A stretch of 64,000 nucleotides of DNA from Myxococcales bacterium (GTDB lineage: Bacteria > Myxococcota_A > Polyangia > GCA-2747355), in the NCBI GenBank assembly GCA_020431405.1, contig JAGQIK010000101.1, positions 1 to 64,000 of the forward strand. Direction: 5' to 3'. Under the pieces are notes generated by a model. The model was not told the origin of the DNA and did no database searches. It saw only the letters and a program-made list of their open reading frames with translations. The position numbers and the translations under genes are program-made. Shown here one piece after another: positions 36,401 through 45,029 of this stretch. Every line of letters begins with the position of its first letter. Positions within the stretch are counted from its first letter, which is position 1.

Positions 36401-37516
36401 ATGCGCGCCCGGGTCGCAGGCGTGGTTTGCCTTGCGCTTATCTCGATGACCGCCGCTGATGCGTCGGCCTACTGCCTTCACAAGTACACCGGCTTCAAGT
36501 CGTTCGCGCGCTGGACGACGATCCCGGTCACCTACCGCGTCTCGTCGAGCCTCACGGACACGGCGCTGCTCGCCGCCATCGACGCCGCCTTCAAGACCTG
36601 GGAGAACGTTCCCTGCTCGCGGCTGGCGTTCACCAAAGGCGCGAGCTTCGACGTCAACACGACGCAGTTCACGTCGCCGCCAGGCAACGAGATCTACGTC
36701 TTCTGGTACCCGCAGGCGCTGTCCTCGAAGTTTCCGACGCAGCCGCAGTTCGCCGCGTACTCGTTTACCGGACACAACAACAACGGCGGCCTGTCCTTCG
36801 GCTCGATCGCGCTCAACGGCTTCCAGTACAACTGGAACGCCACTGGTGGCAGCGCGCAGTCGCCGGGCATCCTCGACATGCAGAACGAGGTCATCTACCT
36901 CGTGGGCACGGTCATCGGCCTCACCGACTCGAAGAACTCCGCGGCGGCGATGAACCCCAACATCAAGTTCGGCGACACGTCGCGCCACACGCTGCACCAA
37001 GACGACATCGACGCGGTCACCTGGCTCTACGCCAAGGACACCACGTGCATGGCGCCGGCGCCCGGCACGGACGGCTGCTCGAGCGGCAGCCCCGTCACGC
37101 CCCCTGTGGGCGACGCCGGCATCAACCCCAACCCCAACCAGGACGCCGGCACGATCCCGCCGCCGACGGAGCAGGGCGTGCAGATCGGCGACGGTGGCAC
37201 CACCAACCCTGGCAGCGACGGCGGCACCACCAACCCCGGCAGCGACGGTGGGACGACCAATCCTGGCAGCGACGGCGGCGCCAGCGGCGGCGACGGCAGC
37301 AGCGGCAAGAGCTGCACGTCGAGCGCTCAATGCGGCGACAACGCCATCTGCGACGTCAACGGCCAGTGCGTGTCGGTGCCCGGCAACAACCCCGGCGGCG
37401 GCGACGACGGCGGCTGCGGCTGCAAGACAGCAGGGCTGCCGGTCGGCGCGGCGCCTCTCGGGCTTCTGCTGCTCGGTCTGCTGCTGTGTGGCCGTTTTCT
37501 ACGCCGGCGGCCGTAG
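36401..37516 (+). CDS. Matrixin-like exported protein lacking the zinc site, MYXO-CTERM-like tail
   Basis: A 371-aa precursor. The signal peptide is followed by a domain with the layout of matrixin metalloproteases: P-V-T-Y-R-V, A-A-I-D-A-A-F-K-T-W, a D-M-Q-N helix, A-A-M-N-P, and finally H-Q-D-D-I-D-A-V-T-W-L-Y. Where the HExxHxxGxxH zinc motif should be it reads Y-L-V-G-T-V-I-G-L-T-D (residues 166-176). All three ligands and the catalytic Glu are replaced while the structural Gly173 is kept. A Gly/Asp/Thr linker with three T-N-P-G-S-D-G-G-T repeats and a Cys-rich patch follows. The tail C-G-C, hydrophobic segment, R-R-R-P is MYXO-CTERM-like. A catalytically dead binding protein is inferred. 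Confidence 0.75.
   Translation: MRARVAGVVCLALISMTAADASAYCLHKYTGFKSFARWTTIPVTYRVSSSLTDTALLAAIDAAFKTWENVPCSRLAFTKGASFDVNTTQFTSPPGNEIYVFWYPQALSSKFPTQPQFAAYSFTGHNNNGGLSFGSIALNGFQYNWNATGGSAQSPGILDMQNEVIYLVGTVIGLTDSKNSAAAMNPNIKFGDTSRHTLHQDDIDAVTWLYAKDTTCMAPAPGTDGCSSGSPVTPPVGDAGINPNPNQDAGTIPPPTEQGVQIGDGGTTNPGSDGGTTNPGSDGGTTNPGSDGGASGGDGSSGKSCTSSAQCGDNAICDVNGQCVSVPGNNPGGGDDGGCGCKTAGLPVGAAPLGLLLLGLLLCGRFLRRRP
37202..37282 (+). repeat. 27-bp tandem repeat (three copies)
   Basis: Three near-identical 27-bp units encode T-N-P-G-S-D-G-G-T/A in the stalk of the first matrixin-like protein. Third-position changes dominate, so selection on the peptide is likely. Confidence 0.9.
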
Positions 37517-37559: not shown

Positions 37560-38576
37560 ATGAGGCTTCATAAACGTGCAGGCCTGGCGCTTCTGGCGAT
37601 GACGCTGATGTACAGCAGCCCAGCGCTGGCGCAGCTTTGTTATCAGGACTCAGACGAGAACAACCCCGGCAACGGTGTGCCGGTGGCGTGGGAGAACACC
37701 GCCACCACGGAGATCGGCTACAAGGTCTACGTGCCGACCTCGCCCAACTTGCCGGCCAAGGCGATGGTCATCGCCGCCATCGACGCCGCGTTCAAGGCCT
37801 ACACCGACATCCCGTGCTCGACGATCAAGTTCAAGAACGCCGGCGAGCTGACCACGCTGGTGACCGAGAACTCGGGCTTCATCACGGTCTACTTCGGCAA
37901 GGACAGCAGCGAGTGGATCTACGGCAACTCGGCCTACAACTACCAGCTGCGCTTCAAGTCGCTGGCCAAAGGCGACATCGACTGGGGCACCATCGGCATG
38001 AACGCCGCCACGCAGCAGTGGGCTATCGGCGCCGAAGCCAACAAGATCGACGTCCAGACGGCCGTCATGCAGATGATCCCAGGCGTCATCGGCTACTACG
38101 TCGGCACTGACCCCGTCGGTGGCTCCGTCGACATCAAGTACAACACGGTCAACCACACCGTCAGCGCTGACCAGACCACGGGCGCGCAGTACACCTATCA
38201 CGACAGCGCCAACAGCAGCTGCACGCAGCCGGCCAAGCCCAACCACTGCCCGACGGCGGCCAACCCTGGCGACGCCGGCCCTGGCAGCGATGCTGACGGC
38301 ACGGTCAATCCCGGCACGGATGGCACGGTCAACCCCGGCACCGACGGCACGGTCAACCCCGGCACCGACGGCACGGTCAACCCTGGCACCGACGGCACGG
38401 TCAACCCCGGCACCGACGGCGGCACGAGCGGCGGCGACGGCGGCGGCGGAAGCGGCGACGACGACGGCTGCTGCCGCGTCAGCCACGCGCGCTCGGCGAA
38501 CATTCCGTTCTTCACGCTGCTCGGCCTGGCGCTCTTCATCGGCCTGACGCGTCGCCGCTGGCGCAAGCGCAAGTAG
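37560..38576 (+). CDS. Second matrixin-like exported protein lacking the zinc site
   Basis: A 338-aa paralogue of the preceding gene. It shares the signal peptide, A-A-I-D-A-A-F-K-A-Y, I-P-C-S and the helix before the active site. The zinc-motif position reads Q-M-I-P-G-V-I-G-Y-Y-V (residues 171-181), again without any His or Glu. The stalk has five G-T-V-N-P-G-T-D repeats. The C-terminus G-C-C, hydrophobic stretch, then R-R-R-W-R-K-R-K resembles a MYXO-CTERM surface-anchoring signal. AGGAG precedes the ATG by 9 nt. It lies 43 bp after its paralogue, which implies tandem duplication. Confidence 0.75.
   Translation: MRLHKRAGLALLAMTLMYSSPALAQLCYQDSDENNPGNGVPVAWENTATTEIGYKVYVPTSPNLPAKAMVIAAIDAAFKAYTDIPCSTIKFKNAGELTTLVTENSGFITVYFGKDSSEWIYGNSAYNYQLRFKSLAKGDIDWGTIGMNAATQQWAIGAEANKIDVQTAVMQMIPGVIGYYVGTDPVGGSVDIKYNTVNHTVSADQTTGAQYTYHDSANSSCTQPAKPNHCPTAANPGDAGPGSDADGTVNPGTDGTVNPGTDGTVNPGTDGTVNPGTDGTVNPGTDGGTSGGDGGGGSGDDDGCCRVSHARSANIPFFTLLGLALFIGLTRRRWRKRK
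38298..38417 (+). repeat. 24-bp tandem repeat (five copies)
   Basis: Five 24-bp units encode G-T-V-N-P-G-T-D in the stalk of the second matrixin-like protein. The near-perfect identity at DNA level suggests recent expansion. Confidence 0.92.
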
Positions 38577-38613: not shown

Positions 38614-38670
38614 CGGCGAGCAACGCGACGCTACGCGAACGGATCTCGCAGAGAGATCCGTTGCTCGCCG
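38614..38670. terminator. Competing hairpins between convergent genes
   Basis: CGGCGAGCAACG (38614-38625) pairs with CGTTGCTCGCCG (38659-38670), 12 bp perfect. Inside, AACGGATCTC (38638-38647) pairs with GAGATCCGTT (38653-38662), 10 bp perfect. The two stems share 38659-38662, so they partly exclude each other. The site overlaps the last codons of the minus-strand gene. It is probably a bidirectional terminator without a T tract. Confidence 0.5.
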
Positions 38671-40202
38671 CGCCCCTTGACCAACTCGAGCCGAATCACG
38701 CCTTCGTCGTCGTCCGCGTAGAGGTCTACGCGCTCGATGGCGATCCAGCTCAGCCGCGGGCCGTGGTCGGCGGCGATGTCTGCCATGGCGCGCACGAAGC
38801 CGCGCGCTACGGCCACCGCGGCGCGCGGCAGCGCGAGCGCACGCACGAGCTCGGCGGCGGCCGCGGCCTCGCCGTCGCGATCGGGCAGGGCGATTGGTGC
38901 CGCCCAGATCGGTCGCTCGCTCGCGCCCGGTGCCGCGTGGGCGCGAAGCTGAAGCAGCGCGTCCTCGTCGTCGAACAGCATCGTGCAGCTGAAGCCGCGC
39001 GCGCGCAGCTGCTGGCGCGAGACCAGCACCCCGGCGATGCCGTGCTCGCTGCGCGAGACCACGTCGCGGTAGACCTGGCGCGCCGCCGAGGCGGTCATGG
39101 CGGTCAGCTCGCCCGCGCGTTCCTCATCGGGAAGGTCAGCGCCCACCGGTCGCAGCAGCACGGGCAGCCCCAGCTCGGCCGCCGCGGCGCCGGCGGCGCT
39201 CGCCGACCGCACGAGGCGCTCCTCGGGCGCTGCGACGCCGTAGCAGCGCACGAGCTCTTTGAGCTGCATCTCCGAGAGCTGCGCGCGCCATCCGTCGAGC
39301 AGGCGTGTGGACCGCGCGGTGGCGCTCGCATCGCTGACGCGCCGTCGCGCGCGTCGCTGCGCGCGCGGCGAGATCGACGCGGCGACGGCGGCTGCACGCA
39401 GCGGCTCCGGGGGGACGGCGCCGAGATTGACGTGCGTCGGGCCGTCTGCGAGCCCGAGCTCGGGGGCGACCAACACGAGCAGCGCTTCACGTCCGGCCGA
39501 CGCCAGCTCGCTGACCATCAGCGCGGCGGCCGCTGGATCGGCGAGCTCGCTGCGCGGCTCCACGCGCACGCCGCCCACGCGCGTGCCGCCCTTGCCGACG
39601 AGCTCGAGCCCGCCGGCGACCGCGGCGTCGCGCATCAGACGCGCCACGTCGCGGCTCACGCAGAGCGCGTCGACGTCGCGCGATCCGCGCGGCAGCAGGC
39701 CGCCGAGCGCGAGCGCGCGCGCGTCGACAGACACCGCGGGTACGTCGCAGGCGACGATGCCGTGCGCGCGCGCCACCCCGAGTGTGGAGAGCTCCTCGAC
39801 GGCGGCACGCGCGTCGATGATGCGCCGCGCGTTGCCCACACAAAGCAGCGTCGCGCCAGGTGTCGAGCGCGCCATGGTGCGCAACGTCGAGAGCTTGGGT
39901 GAGGCGTGCAGCGCGACGATCAGGTTGGCGGCGGCCGGCGAGTCGTGCAGCGCTAGCAGCGCGGCTTCGATGCTCGATGGCGTCACGATGGCGACGGCAT
40001 CGATCTCCAGCTCGGCCGCGCGCGCGGCGCTGACCACGCGGCGCGCCAGCGAGTACCCGTCGCCGAGCACCACCGTGTTCGTCGCCACGGCCGCGGGGCG
40101 CGTCGCCCGTTGGGGCGGCTTTTCCGGCCGCGGAGATTCGAGCTCGCAGTCGATGCCCGCGCCCGCGAGGCGCTCGCGCAGCGCCCGGAGCGCAGCCGTC
40201 AC
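38631..40202 (-). CDS. ATP-grasp / NDP-forming acyl-CoA-synthetase-like protein, degenerate
   Basis: A 523-aa protein whose first half resembles the CoA-ligase domains of ADP-forming acyl-CoA synthetases (Y-S-L-A-R-R-V-V-S-A-A-R-A, then D-S-P-A-A-A-N-L-I-V-A-L). Its second half, from about 340, resembles their ATP-grasp domain (L-S-E-M-Q-L-K-E-L-V-R-C-Y-G-V). Where those enzymes keep a metal-binding D-I-N-P-L near the end, this has I-E-R-V-D-L, and no obvious phospho-His segment is seen, so synthetase activity is doubtful. The GTG start overlaps the EtfB-like stop (GTGA), so it is translated with the Etf-like pair. Confidence 0.65.
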   Translation of the reverse strand: MTAALRALRERLAGAGIDCELESPRPEKPPQRATRPAAVATNTVVLGDGYSLARRVVSAARAAELEIDAVAIVTPSSIEAALLALHDSPAAANLIVALHASPKLSTLRTMARSTPGATLLCVGNARRIIDARAAVEELSTLGVARAHGIVACDVPAVSVDARALALGGLLPRGSRDVDALCVSRDVARLMRDAAVAGGLELVGKGGTRVGGVRVEPRSELADPAAAALMVSELASAGREALLVLVAPELGLADGPTHVNLGAVPPEPLRAAAVAASISPRAQRRARRRVSDASATARSTRLLDGWRAQLSEMQLKELVRCYGVAAPEERLVRSASAAGAAAAELGLPVLLRPVGADLPDEERAGELTAMTASAARQVYRDVVSRSEHGIAGVLVSRQQLRARGFSCTMLFDDEDALLQLRAHAAPGASERPIWAAPIALPDRDGEAAAAAELVRALALPRAAVAVARGFVRAMADIAADHGPRLSWIAIERVDLYADDDEGVIRLELVKGRGEQRISLRDPFA

Positions 40203-41374
40203 GAGGCCGGGCCGAGCACGCCGAGGGCGCGGAGCTTGCCGATCAGCGCCGGCACGTCGGCGACGATCTCGGCGCGGCGCTCGATGCGCGACAGCGACGG
40301 GCGCACGTCGGCGATCGCCGAAGCGAGCGTCTTGGGCGCGCGCAGCGTCGTCGACGTCGCGCTGCCATCCGCGTCGGCGTCGCTGAGGTCGAGAAGCTCG
40401 ACGCTGGGCTCCGCCTGCGCCACAGCGGCCGCCGCTTCGGTCGTCAGCGCCTCGTAGGGCCTGCATCCGAGCGCGGTCAGCACCAGGGGCGAGGGCAACG
40501 TCACGCGCAGCAGCCGCGCGCCGTGCTGCACGGATACGGCCAGAGGCGGCCCAGCCGTGGTGTGCTGGCGCAGCGACGCCGTGTCGGGCGGTAGCGTGGG
40601 CATGTTCATCGACGCAACCGTCTTGCCCGAAGCGAGCGCCTGCTCGCCCGTGTCGACGTGGGCGAGCCCGCCCGCGCCGTCGTCGGCCACCGTGTCGGTA
40701 GGCGACAAAGCGTCGCCGTCTCCGCCGCCGTCATCCTCGTCGTCGTCGTCGTCGTGACCGCCGACGGCGCGGTGCTCGCCCGATCGGGAGGCGCGCAGCG
40801 CGATGTTGTCGGCCACGGTGGGCTCTTCGTCGCCGAAGCCGCCGTCGTCGTCACTGCTGTCGATGGTGTCCTGGCGTGCTTCGAAGGCGCGGCCGTGCTC
40901 GAGCGCTGCGTTCTCGTCGTCGGTCTGCACCGTCTCGAGCGGCAGGTCGGCGGCAGGCGCGTGCTCCACGTCGATCACGCAGCGAAGGTGCGGCACGCCG
41001 AGGCGATGGGCGACCACCGGCCCCGTCATGCCGCTCGACCAGTTCGCGGAGCGGTCTCCCGCGAGCACGACGTCGAAGCCTATCTCCTCGAGCGCCTGCG
41101 CCAGCAGCGCGCTGACCGAGTCGAGGTTGTCCCAGTCGACGGCCGTCTCGGTGACGCGCACGCAGCGCGACGCGCCGAGCGCGCGTGCGTGCGCGAAGAC
41201 GCGCTCGTCCTCGCGAGGGCCGGCGGTGAGGGCCGTCACCGAGCCTTCGTCGCCTGCGAGCTTGCTCGCCAGCGCCAGCGCGGCGCGCTCGCAGGGGGGC
41301 AGCCCGTCGAGCTTTCGCGGCTCGTCATCGGCGGGGGCGCCACGCGGCGCCTGGATCAGCACGACGACTCGCAT
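40199..41374 (-). CDS. EtfB-like protein with acidic insert
   Basis: A 391-aa protein with the N-terminal ETF-beta fold: R-V-V-V-L-I-Q-A-P, a helix C-E-R-A-A-L-A-L-A, T-A-L-T-A-G-P, A-R-A-L-G-A-S-R, then F-D-V-V-L-A-G-D-R and M-T-G-P-V-V-A-H-R-L-G-V-P. About 110 residues of Asp/Gly-rich low complexity are inserted mid-protein. The usual late R-Y-P-S/K-A-K-K segment is replaced by C-R-P-Y-E-A-L. Normal ETF passes electrons from dehydrogenases to the quinone pool; whether this one binds AMP or FAD is uncertain. It lies between the EtfA-like and ATP-grasp genes. Confidence 0.7.
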   Translation of the reverse strand: MRVVVLIQAPRGAPADDEPRKLDGLPPCERAALALASKLAGDEGSVTALTAGPREDERVFAHARALGASRCVRVTETAVDWDNLDSVSALLAQALEEIGFDVVLAGDRSANWSSGMTGPVVAHRLGVPHLRCVIDVEHAPAADLPLETVQTDDENAALEHGRAFEARQDTIDSSDDDGGFGDEEPTVADNIALRASRSGEHRAVGGHDDDDDEDDGGGDGDALSPTDTVADDGAGGLAHVDTGEQALASGKTVASMNMPTLPPDTASLRQHTTAGPPLAVSVQHGARLLRVTLPSPLVLTALGCRPYEALTTEAAAAVAQAEPSVELLDLSDADADGSATSTTLRAPKTLASAIADVRPSLSRIERRAEIVADVPALIGKLRALGVLGPAS

Positions 41375-42598
41375 CTAGTCCCCCTCGGCCGCCGCGCTCG
41401 ATGGCGCGTCGGGCGCCGCGGTGGCGAGCAGCTCGTCGATGACCGCGCGCGGGTCGGAGACGATGCCGACGTGCGCGACCTCGAAGATCGGAGCGTCCTC
41501 GTCGCTGTTGACGGCGACGATGCGCGTGTGCGGCGCCAGCGCTGCCAGATGCTCCTCGGACCCCGCGATGCCGAAGGCGAGATACACGTCCGCATCGACG
41601 CACAGGCCGCCGAAGCCGACGCACCGCTCGCGTGGGGCGTGACCCGCGGCGCAGGCCTCCTCGCTGGCCACGACCGGCGCGCCGAGCGCGGCGCCGAGCT
41701 GCTCGAGGCGCGCGAAGGCGTCGGCGTCGAGCCCCGTTCCGCCGCCGAGCACGGTCTTGGCGAGCACCAGCGAGCCGAGCTCGGGCGCCTCGACCTCGCT
41801 CACCGACAGCGGCACGGCGCTCTCGCTGGGCGCCTGCACCACCACTACCTCCGCCTCGTCGGCGCCGAGCGTTTGGACCTCGCCGCTTCCGTGCAGCGTG
41901 AGCACCAGCGGCTGCGGACGCGCGAGCAGCTCGCTGAGAAGAAAGCGGCGCCGAAAGACGTCGTGCTCGATGACGAAGTCGCGCGGTGCGTCGATAGTGG
42001 CCGTGGTGCTGCGGCGCAGCGGCTGCGTCGTCGTGTCTGAGGGCGGTGCATCGGCGCCGTTGCCCGACGCGCCGGCGCCGGGCGCGCGGTGCAGGCTCGT
42101 CTCGGCGTCGTCATCACCCGCGTCGGCCGCTGGTGCTGGCGGCGGCGGCGCGCTCGCCTGCGACGCGTCACACAGCTCGGTCTCGCCGTAGCGCGCGCGC
42201 AGCTTGAACGCGACGCGCGGGCCGAGCTCGCGGCCGGCGGGTTGCGGGAACAACACCAGCTGCGGCGGGAAGCGATCGCACGCGGCGAAGGTCGCCTCGG
42301 CGTGCGTGGCGTAGAGCGCCGGCGGCGCCAGCGACGGGCTGGTCGTCAGCACGACCTTGTCCGCGCCATGCCGCGAGAGCACCGCGATGATGTCGTCCTC
42401 GCCGTAGCAGGGCGGGGCCACGCAGGGCAGCATCGCGTAGAGCGTGGCGCCGAGCTGCGAGGCGACACGCCGCCCAACCCACAACGCGTGCAACGAAGCT
42501 TCGCTGGCGCGCGCGCGCACGATGCGCTCCTCGCCATCGCCTCCGTCCGGCGCCGTGTCGGCTTGCTCCAGCTCGATGAAGACGAGGATGTTTGCCAC
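41375..42598 (-). CDS. EtfA-like protein with degenerate FAD site
   Basis: A 407-aa protein. The C-terminal ~120 residues align by eye with the FAD-binding domain of ETF-alpha: L-G-G-G-T-G-L, A-L-G-A-P-V-V-A-S, D-V-Y-L-A-F-G-I-A-G, I-V-A-V-N-S-D-E-D-A-P-I-F-E-V-A-H-V-G-I-V. Signature FAD contacts are altered: the S-R motif reads S-E, G-Q-T-G reads G-F-G-G, and S-G-A-I-Q-H reads A-G-S-E-E-H. The N-terminal domain keeps the ETF-like start I-L-V-F-I-E-L, and a Pro/Ala/Asp-rich insert lies at about 145-195. The start is GTG. Its promoter lies within a 14-bp repeat array. Confidence 0.68.
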   Translation of the reverse strand: MANILVFIELEQADTAPDGGDGEERIVRARASEASLHALWVGRRVASQLGATLYAMLPCVAPPCYGEDDIIAVLSRHGADKVVLTTSPSLAPPALYATHAEATFAACDRFPPQLVLFPQPAGRELGPRVAFKLRARYGETELCDASQASAPPPPAPAADAGDDDAETSLHRAPGAGASGNGADAPPSDTTTQPLRRSTTATIDAPRDFVIEHDVFRRRFLLSELLARPQPLVLTLHGSGEVQTLGADEAEVVVVQAPSESAVPLSVSEVEAPELGSLVLAKTVLGGGTGLDADAFARLEQLGAALGAPVVASEEACAAGHAPRERCVGFGGLCVDADVYLAFGIAGSEEHLAALAPHTRIVAVNSDEDAPIFEVAHVGIVSDPRAVIDELLATAAPDAPSSAAAEGD

Positions 42599-42640: not shown

Positions 42641-42669
42641 AGGGTACTCGTGCCCGTCGGCCTGGTCAA
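42641..42669 (-). promoter_or_regulatory. Candidate promoter of the Etf-like operon
   Basis: On the minus strand: TTGACC (42669-42664), 17 bp, TACCCT (42646-42641). The -35 is the first unit of the repeat array at 42664-42745. The leader is about 36 nt. Confidence 0.6.
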
Positions 42670-42745
42670 TCGGCCTCGGTCGATCGGCCTTGGTCAATCT
42701 GCCTCGGTCGATCGGCCGCCGGTCGATCGGTCGCCGGTCAGTCGG
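42664..42745. repeat. 14-15-bp tandem repeat array
   Basis: Five full units and one partial unit of GGTCRATCGGCCTC (14, 14, 14, 15, 15 and 10 bp). The sites alternate GGTCAATC and GGTCGATC; the latter contains the palindrome CGATCG. The array overlaps the last codons of the DUF507 gene and supplies the -35 of the Etf-like operon. Confidence 0.9.
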
Positions 42746-43256
42746 ATGCGAGGCCGCGCCTGCGCTTGATCTGCTCCATGACCTTGGCGTACTCGACGTC
42801 CCACGAGCTCGTGCCCTCCTGCAGGTTGCGGATCTTGGCGCGAACTTCCTCGTCGAGCTCCTCGTCGACCATCATGTGGCGGCGCAGGATCTCGGTCATC
42901 GACTTCCGCAGCTCGACATCGGTGGCGAAGATCTCCTCGATGAACTTCGACTGCATGAAGGTCTCGGAGATCTGACCGCACATCCAGATGATGCCTTCCT
43001 CGCCGAGGCCGTGCTTGCGCTGGTCGGCGAGCATGCGCTTGACCTTGCCGAACTGCCCGTGCGAGAGGCCGCGTTTCTCGATGACGTCCTTGGCCGCCTC
43101 GGTCAGCTCGCGGTCGCGCCGGATGTACTCCTTGAGCACGCTCTGAATGTCGAGCTCGGCCTCTTCGACGTCGGTGACCTCGATCTGTCCGGCGCTGGTC
43201 AGCTGGCGGATGATGTCCCGCGCGATGATGGGGACTTTGGCGCTGTACAGCTTCAT
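42738..43256 (-). CDS. DUF507 family protein
   Basis: A 172-aa helical protein of the DUF507 family, made of two related halves. It starts M-K-L-Y-S-A-K-V-P-I-I-A-R-D-I-I-R-Q-L, with V-E-E-A-E-L-D-I in the first half; the second half has similar acidic-helix and L-R-R-H-M-M-V-D-E-E-L-D-E-E-V-R segments. DUF507 proteins are conserved in Myxococcota and relatives; the function is unknown. The C-terminal codons lie in the 14-bp repeat array. It is divergent from the winged-helix kinase-like gene. Confidence 0.88.
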   Translation of the reverse strand: MKLYSAKVPIIARDIIRQLTSAGQIEVTDVEEAELDIQSVLKEYIRRDRELTEAAKDVIEKRGLSHGQFGKVKRMLADQRKHGLGEEGIIWMCGQISETFMQSKFIEEIFATDVELRKSMTEILRRHMMVDEELDEEVRAKIRNLQEGTSSWDVEYAKVMEQIKRRRGLASD

Positions 43257-43439: not shown

Positions 43440-45029
43440 ATGGAAGGCAAAGGGAAACTGACTAAGGAAGTCGTCGCCCAGGAGGCGCGCTTCATCCTCG
43501 ACAGCATCCTCAACTCCGGCGCGTACCCGCAGGAGGTGCAGTACGAGGATCTGCGGCGTCAGTGCGAGAAGTCGGTCTCGCTGCGGTTGCTCGACTACGT
43601 CAACTTCCTCGAGCGCTTCGGATACCTGACCTACGATCGCGCCACGCACCTGATCAGCACCACCAGCGACGGCGAGCGCGTGGTCAGCGGCGAGAAGATG
43701 GCCGAGCTGGTGATCGATGTCGTGCACCACTTTCGGCCGATCCTGGCGCGCACGCGCAGCGGCAAGGAAGACAGCAACGCGCGCGCGCGGCGTCGCGGAT
43801 CGGGCAGCCAGAACGCACCCGGCGGCGGCGGCACGAGCGGCGGCGGCGGCGGCGGCGGCGGCGCGGCGCGCATCGACGAGCGCTACGAGAAGCTCTCCAC
43901 GCTCGGCTCGGGCGGCATCGGCACGGTGTACCTGGCGCGACAGGTCCCGCTCGGACGCGACGTGGCGCTCAAGGAGATCCGCGAGCTGTTCGGCTTCTTC
44001 ACCGAGCCGCAGCGCCAAGAGATCGTGCGCCGCTTCGACGAGGAGTCGCGCAAGGCGGCGCAGCTTTCGCATCCCAACATCGCGATGATCCTCGACGGCA
44101 ACACTTCGCGCGACTACCCGTACCTCGTCAGCGAGTACGTCAGCAGCGGCAGCCTGCGCCGCGTGCTCAAGCGCGCCGAGAAGATTCCGCCCGAGCTGTC
44201 GGTGAAGGTCTTCCTACAGATCCTGCACGGCCTCGGTCACGCCCACCAGCGCGGCGTGATCCACCGCGGCCTCAAGCCCGAGAACATCCTCTTCGATCGC
44301 TCGGGCAACGTGCGCATCACCGACTTCGGCATGGCGCGCGTGGTCGAGCGCGACCAAGCGGTGATCCAGCACGTCTATGTCGGCATGGGCTCGGTGGCCT
44401 ATATGGCGCCGGAGCTGTTCACCTCGCCCAAGTCGCTCGACAAGCGCTCCGACCTCTACGCTGTCGGCATCATCTTCTACGAGATGCTCGCTCGTAAGCT
44501 GCCGGGCCGCCGCTCGGCGATGCCCACCGAGCTTCACGAAGGCTTGCCGAAGGTCATCGACGATCTGTTCGACAAGCTGACCCAGGACGATCCCGAGGAC
44601 CGCTATTCGACCGTCGACGAGGTCCTCGAGGACTTCTACAAGTCCACCGAGTCCAAGGACTACCTCGAGCCGCGCGGCGCGGTGCTGTTTCTCGACAACC
44701 CGCTCGACGAGCTCGAGATGAAGGACGAGGAGCCCGAGGACACGCCCGAGGGCGGCGGCTTCGACGGCGGCGGCGACGACGACCAGCCAGTCGACGGGGC
44801 CGAGGACGTCTCGCTCGAGGCGGTGCACGCCAGCGCCAGCAGCCACGCCGAGGCGCTCGCCGCCGAGCCGGGTCTCGAGGTGGTGGAGTCGTCGGGGGGC
44901 ACGCCGATGGAAGGCGACGACGACGACTTTGCTGACGAGGGGACGGGCAGCAAGCGCGGCGGCGGACGGCGCGCGCGCTCGCACCGGCCGTACTCGTTTC
45001 AGCAGCGCATCAAAGAACGAGAGAAGTAG
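43440..45029 (+). CDS. Winged-helix plus kinase-like protein; HRD Asp missing
   Basis: A 529-aa soluble protein. Residues about 5-105 look like a winged-helix domain: helices, then L-L-D-Y-V-N-F-L-E-R-F-G-Y-L-T-Y-D and a wing with S-D-G-E-R-V. A poly-Gly linker precedes a kinase fold (about 148-405) with Gly loop L-G-S-G-G-I-G-T-V-Y, Lys178, H-R-G-L-K-P-E-N at 275-282, DFG Asp295 and Y-M-A-P-E-L. The catalytic Asp is Gly277. The C-terminal ~120 residues are acidic and low complexity. DNA-binding coupled to a pseudokinase is a reasonable inference; an active but unusual kinase is not excluded. Confidence 0.85.
   Translation: MEGKGKLTKEVVAQEARFILDSILNSGAYPQEVQYEDLRRQCEKSVSLRLLDYVNFLERFGYLTYDRATHLISTTSDGERVVSGEKMAELVIDVVHHFRPILARTRSGKEDSNARARRRGSGSQNAPGGGGTSGGGGGGGGAARIDERYEKLSTLGSGGIGTVYLARQVPLGRDVALKEIRELFGFFTEPQRQEIVRRFDEESRKAAQLSHPNIAMILDGNTSRDYPYLVSEYVSSGSLRRVLKRAEKIPPELSVKVFLQILHGLGHAHQRGVIHRGLKPENILFDRSGNVRITDFGMARVVERDQAVIQHVYVGMGSVAYMAPELFTSPKSLDKRSDLYAVGIIFYEMLARKLPGRRSAMPTELHEGLPKVIDDLFDKLTQDDPEDRYSTVDEVLEDFYKSTESKDYLEPRGAVLFLDNPLDELEMKDEEPEDTPEGGGFDGGGDDDQPVDGAEDVSLEAVHASASSHAEALAAEPGLEVVESSGGTPMEGDDDDFADEGTGSKRGGGRRARSHRPYSFQQRIKEREK

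Follow-up and report, generated by a model that had tools for sequence, protein, structure and literature searches.

A degenerate EtfA-EtfB-acyl-CoA synthetase-like gene set retained near DUF507 and CCA enzyme genes in a bacterial class

The window, i.e., the whole analyzed stretch of 64,000 nt, contains three adjacent genes, here named A, B, and C, that are homologous to the alpha and beta subunits of ETF and to NDP-forming acyl-CoA synthetases, respectively, and that have lost catalytic elements of these enzymes. The set is retained across the class of the window genome, is under purifying selection, and is found in synteny with genes for DUF507 and the CCA enzyme. From these results we infer a lack of activity, a physical association, a ligand, and a cellular role of the products. 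An assembly of pseudoenzymes with a scaffolding or ligand-sensing function, in which A-B would be the scaffold or sensor and C the partner, has in our view an even chance of being the correct reading. The parts belong to known superfamilies, and the variant and the gene association appear to be new. The statement of an earlier note on this DNA that no system with this set has been described agrees with our search, which found none in the literature covered, with most subscription journals outside it.

Organization of the locus

The genes are encoded on the minus strand in the order DUF507 (43256-42738), a gap of 139 nt, A (42598-41375), B (41374-40199), and C (40202-38631). Gene A has a GTG start and encodes 407 aa, gene B 391 aa, and gene C 523 aa. 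The open reading frame that holds C (38631-40466) is over-long at its start, and the likely start codon is the GTG at 40202. The earlier note had described three overlapping genes, which is correct for B and C with an overlap of 4 nt (GTGA), whereas A and B only abut without any overlap. The GC content at codon position 3 is 0.91, 0.91, and 0.89 in the frames of A, B, and C, and the values of about 0.77, 0.53, and 0.91 for the codon positions 1, 2, and 3 fit real coding in these frames.

The FAD site of the EtfA-like protein

Gene A matches Pfam ETF with 31.5 bits (aa 29-135; 42194-42514, minus strand) and Pfam ETF_alpha with 54.5 bits (aa 279-353; 41540-41764, minus strand). The former, the N-terminal ETF domain, is, of all elements of the locus, the one that persists most, and the latter is a degenerate FAD-binding domain. 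ETF_alpha also matched 8 of the 10 family A proteins that were scanned. Ordinary EtfA proteins for comparison were obtained from a contig scan with A that was seeded on short peptides and returned ordinary EtfA only. In a phylogenetic tree, 14 family A proteins formed one clade versus 30 ordinary EtfA with a support of 100/100, and the stem branch of the family had a length of 1.53 changes per column. The window genome encodes one other EtfA, which is ordinary and is found together with its EtfB on another contig.

The FAD-site positions are given in human EtfA numbering. Compared with the 30 ordinary EtfA, the window protein carries the replacements R223T, R249E, Q265F, T266G, S281A, and Q285E, and it keeps H286, N300, and D302. 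The FAD contacts S/T248-R249, T/S266, Q285-H286, and N300 are present in 30/30 ordinary EtfA; at the positions 248-249, 265-266, 285-286, and 300, the window has S-E, F-G, E-H, and N, and the FAD contacts of A thus deviate from those of functional ETFs. The residues that are invariant or nearly so in the 30 ordinary proteins are replaced or deleted in the A family: R223 is replaced in every member that bears the FAD domain, and R249, Q265, T266, and Q285 are mostly replaced, while H286, N300/D, and D302 are largely retained. The best-preserved A protein (genome G102, locus L187) still contains R249, T266, H286, N300, and D302, and R249 is retained in the g20 members and in G101. The presence of R249 and T266 in G102 indicates that the FAD site was lost progressively. 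A profile of the canonical FAD domain found the domain only in the families f1, f2, f3, f11, f21, f22, f23, and part of f13, and gave no match in f4, f5, f7, f8, f9, f15, f16, f20, and the other part of f13. The roles of the FAD residues are established knowledge on ETFs, which is partly restated in PMC12630350.

The window protein has a low-complexity insert at aa 143-207 (41978-42172, minus strand; 10 D/E of 65 residues), which is present in this genome only and absent from the other aligned family members, including G001 of the same family. Acidic expansions recur at the A-B-C locus, as an A protein of another family (L123 in G056, 912-2414) has an independent acidic, low-complexity C-terminal tail of about 150 aa. 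Inspection by eye of three loci (L126, L131, and L194; f16, f20) revealed that read-through 5′ of A resembles, in another frame, the end of a short-chain dehydrogenase.

The EtfB-like protein

Gene B matches Pfam ETF with 59.6 bits (PF01012; aa 26-139, 40958-41299, minus strand), and the profile of the B family matches 10 EtfB sequences of the PDB with a best E value of 4e-34. The ETF domain is thus found in both adjacent subunits, as in functional ETFs. The recognition loop of EtfB docks the partner dehydrogenases (PMC9232219). This loop, RYxxLPxIMKAKKK, was present in 11/11 ordinary EtfB and in 0/9 family B proteins; it was scored by eye, a strict regular expression having missed several ordinary EtfB. 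The acidic, low-complexity insert of B (aa 147-282; 40529-40936, minus strand) contains 32 D/E among 136 residues and, like that of A, is confined to this genome and absent from the other aligned family members, including G001. The acidic inserts that the earlier note had reported in A and B are real, but they do not belong to what is conserved, because the relatives are devoid of them.

The acyl-CoA synthetase-like protein

Gene C matches Pfam ATP-grasp_5 (PF13549) with 34 bits, the recognizable part being aa 305-403 (38994-39290, minus strand), and the same match was obtained for 6/6 C proteins scanned. Window C is so divergent that, used directly as the query against the class, it returned almost nothing, and a profile was needed. 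A C profile built without the window matched window C at aa 40-502 with 54 bits, in the presence of a strong composition bias. Alignment of C with true acyl-CoA synthetases by hhalign (99.9%, E 3e-31) covered the whole of C and began at residue 182 of ACD, i.e., past the CoA-binding domain. This domain and the phospho-histidine loop are missing from C in this alignment, and the SHTGA stretch has no counterpart. The fold was modelled with AF2 on the family representative L187 (42-sequence alignment, pLDDT 93.9) and was carried over to window C by profile and synteny. The best Foldseek matches of the representative were DddX (7cm9), PatZ (9it0), and the ADP-forming synthetase ACD (4xym), and the C family is thus predicted to retain the fold of the NDP-forming acyl-CoA synthetase superfamily, including the ATP-grasp domain.

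In window C, the lysine of the ATP-grasp domain is replaced by arginine, which is also the case in G001 and G101, and the glutamate of the glycine loop and the D-x-N-P motif are gone. In the family, the metal-site residues are gone, the glycine-loop glutamate is lost, and D-x-N-P is lost in most members. The f8 proteins keep the ATP lysine, the K/E loop residues, and sometimes the asparagine of D-x-N-P. The C proteins outside the window lineage share TRQAVA, a conserved motif that is new. The earlier note had reported changes of expected cofactor residues in the EtfA-like, EtfB-like, and acyl-CoA synthetase-like proteins. A loss was borne out for all three, and it extends beyond that description, to the FAD domain as a whole in several families, the docking loop of B, and the CoA-binding domain and phospho-histidine loop of C.

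Distribution and conserved neighbors

The class was searched with two profiles, A4 for the N-terminal domain of A and A3 for C. Of the 318 genomes of the class, 64 matched A4, with scores of 77-179 bits. The restriction of A to the class was judged against the rest of the same phylum, where the best score was 61 bits and stemmed from ordinary EtfA. With A3, 33 genomes of the class gave matches that were long or covered the full length, and f8 gave weaker ones. The locus is kept in about 15 families with a largely conserved gene order, the usual order being DUF507, A, B, and C, convergent with the gene for CCA tRNA nucleotidyltransferase. The earlier note had proposed to look for the trio in relatives, and BLAST and profile searches of whole genomes revealed the full set in about eight GTDB families (f1, f4, f11, f13, f16, f20, f22, and f23), with C being divergent in f4, f16, and f20. 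Other families have parts of it: A and B without C (f2, f3, f5, f21), A and B as a fusion (f7, f15, and the genome G036), A and C without a detectable B in a row with DUF507 (f8, with an A-like gene), or A alone (most of f9). C occurs without adjoining A or B in G090 and G100 (L190, G100:C161). G100 has a genome of 1.6 Mb that is rated 98% complete, and its C gene adjoins the CCA enzyme gene; chorismate synthase is encoded directly upstream of C in this genome.

The gene for DUF507, a fold without a known function (PMC10439177), is close to A or immediately 5′ of it in f1, f2, f3, f7, f8, f9, f16, f20, f21, f22, and f23, and the A-B-C locus thus gives DUF507 a genomic context in this class. 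In the window, it is directly upstream of A (42738-43256, minus strand; PF04368, 126.6 bits; synteny). The convergent downstream neighbor is often the CCA tRNA nucleotidyltransferase gene (NCBIfam PRK13299 at, above, or somewhat below the cut-off); other downstream neighbors encode an AAA/TPR protein or, in f5, RNase III. The CCA linkage was not seen in the window genome, which has CCA-like genes on other contigs. No conserved dehydrogenase or ETF-QO neighbor was seen among the loci examined.

Selection on the three genes

The rate of nonsynonymous changes, a check that the earlier note had also proposed, was quantified by the NG86 method, and dN/dS was below 1 in all pairs. For the closest pair (L118/L191), the values were 0.23 for A, 0.32 for B, and 0.31 for C, compared with 0.28 and 0.26 for two neighboring genes. 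In more distant g20 pairs, the values for the trio were about 0.5-0.76 and exceeded most neighbor values, so that the constraint on the trio is real but moderate. No internal stop codons were found in A among the matches listed, from 64 genomes. The dN/dS values below 1 disfavor a simple decay. The loss, which the earlier note had called coordinated, indeed affects all three genes, but it was not one event: an ancestral, common loss (R223 of EtfA and the docking loop of EtfB) was followed by further losses in individual lineages.

Discussion

The gene set shares with functional ETFs (PF00766, PF01012) the two adjacent genes, the ETF domains, a remnant of the FAD domain, and, in some A members, the equivalents of H286, N300, and D302. 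It differs in that most A proteins are without the FAD contacts R223, R249, Q265, T266, and Q285 and often without the whole domain, that B is devoid of the partner-docking loop, and that A forms a separate clade (100/100). With the NDP(ADP)-forming acyl-CoA synthetases ACD, DddX, and PatZ, C has in common the part of the fold that follows the CoA-binding domain, with ATP-grasp included; in contrast to them, it has no CoA-binding domain, phospho-histidine loop, or glycine-loop glutamate, most C proteins are without D-x-N-P, and TRQAVA is new outside the window lineage. The top NCBIfam matches of A and B were mycofactocin-associated EtfA and EtfB (NF038209, TIGR04503). This assignment was rejected, as A scored 96.8 versus a cut-off of 240 bits and B 45.3 versus a cut-off of 200 bits; no mycofactocin genes were seen among the neighbors examined. 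A fusion of EtfB and EtfA with 610 aa (L124:8613-10445, G005:C121) keeps ordinary FAD-domain motifs and is distinct from the degenerate family.

We hypothesize that A, B, and C stem from a cassette of ETF alpha, ETF beta, and an NDP-forming acyl-CoA synthetase (superfamily of ADP-forming acetyl-CoA synthetase, PatZ, and DddX), and that the set might have lost electron transfer and CoA ligation early in the class and been kept as non-catalytic proteins. The persisting parts would be a rigid ETF base, to which A contributes its N-terminal ETF domain and B its ETF domain, and, in C, a shortened synthetase fold. A-B might form a scaffold that docks C and has a structural or ligand-sensing role, and the ligand would probably be an adenine nucleotide or a relative of acyl-CoA. 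The recurring A-B fusions in f7, f15, and G036 suggest that the products of A and B work together. The repurposing proposed in the earlier note fits the intact frames in 64 genomes and the dN/dS of 0.23-0.32 versus 0.26-0.28 for neighbors, but since either A or C can be found by itself, the three products are unlikely to form a tight, obligate complex. Some points run counter to a pseudoenzyme assembly: the A protein of G102 could bind FAD, judging from the retained R249, T266, H286, and N300, the f8 C proteins keep several ATP-site residues, and genes beside the essential CCA enzyme gene can hold their place without a common function.

It is not probable, but of the other possibilities the one to be taken most seriously, that the N-terminal domain of A and C are independent modules with separate jobs, joined by an ancestral operon and forming no A-B-C complex. 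A is found without C in f2, f3, f5, f9, and f21, C without A or B in G090 and G100, and B is missing or escaped detection in f8 and the majority of f9, all of which would be expected for independent modules. In contrast, the overlapping or abutting genes of the complete trio, seen in about eight families, and the repeated A-B fusions speak against independent modules. We regard it as rather improbable that the set encodes a divergent, redox-active ETF, in which A-B would bind FAD in an altered mode and serve one dedicated dehydrogenase, with C as a working ATP-grasp ligase that has unusual residues. Such an activity would be compatible with the five FAD-site residues kept by G102, with R249 in the g20 members and G101, with the ETF_alpha matches in 8/10 A proteins, and with the ATP-site residues of the f8 C proteins. 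It is difficult to reconcile with the replacement of R223 in all bearers of the FAD domain, the undetectable FAD domain of several families, the missing docking loop in 9/9 B proteins, the absence of a conserved dehydrogenase or ETF-QO gene among the neighbors seen, and a C protein without the CoA-binding domain and the phospho-histidine loop. Least credible is a slowly decaying relic of an ETF/acyl-CoA synthetase operon that is carried along beside essential genes. The progressive loss of domains along lineages, the long stem of 1.53 changes per column, and the elevated dN/dS of the trio in distant g20 pairs would fit this explanation, but not the absence of internal stops among the matches listed in 64 genomes, a dN/dS that is below 1 and comparable to that of the neighbors in the closest pair, the retention of C in the reduced genome of G100, and the new TRQAVA motif.

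Annotation as an ETF subunit is everywhere taken to mean a redox carrier. If the pseudoenzyme assembly is real, a whole enzymatic cassette was turned into pseudoenzymes and kept in dozens of genomes, with surviving intermediates, at one end G102, where several FAD residues are left, and at the other the families in which the FAD domain is no longer detected; ETF labels assigned automatically in this class may then be misleading. A more specific proposal, which is tentative and about which we have considerable doubt, is a hitherto undescribed role of the ETF fold outside redox chemistry: an assembly of pseudo-EtfAB and a pseudo acyl-CoA synthetase that spans the class and is linked to the genes for DUF507 and the CCA-adding enzyme might sense the nucleotide or acyl-CoA state or scaffold a process related to RNA or translation.

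Other features of the window

A Ser/Thr protein kinase gene (Pfam Pkinase; 43440-45029, plus strand) is divergently oriented to its neighbor DUF507, and a Ser/Thr kinase gene also adjoins DUF507 in G002, G003, G012, G020, and G101. A unit of about 14 bp, TCGGCCTCGGTCGA, is repeated in tandem at 42657-42739 (5.3 copies) and takes up a large part of the spacer that separates DUF507 from A. The window further encodes two similar-looking secreted proteins (36401-37516 and 37560-38576, both on the plus strand) with repeat-rich stretches, and a 24-bp repeat with 5.2 copies is located at 38295-38420 in this pair. The C-terminus of the pair is Cys-containing, hydrophobic, and Arg-rich and resembles a MYXO-CTERM sorting signal.
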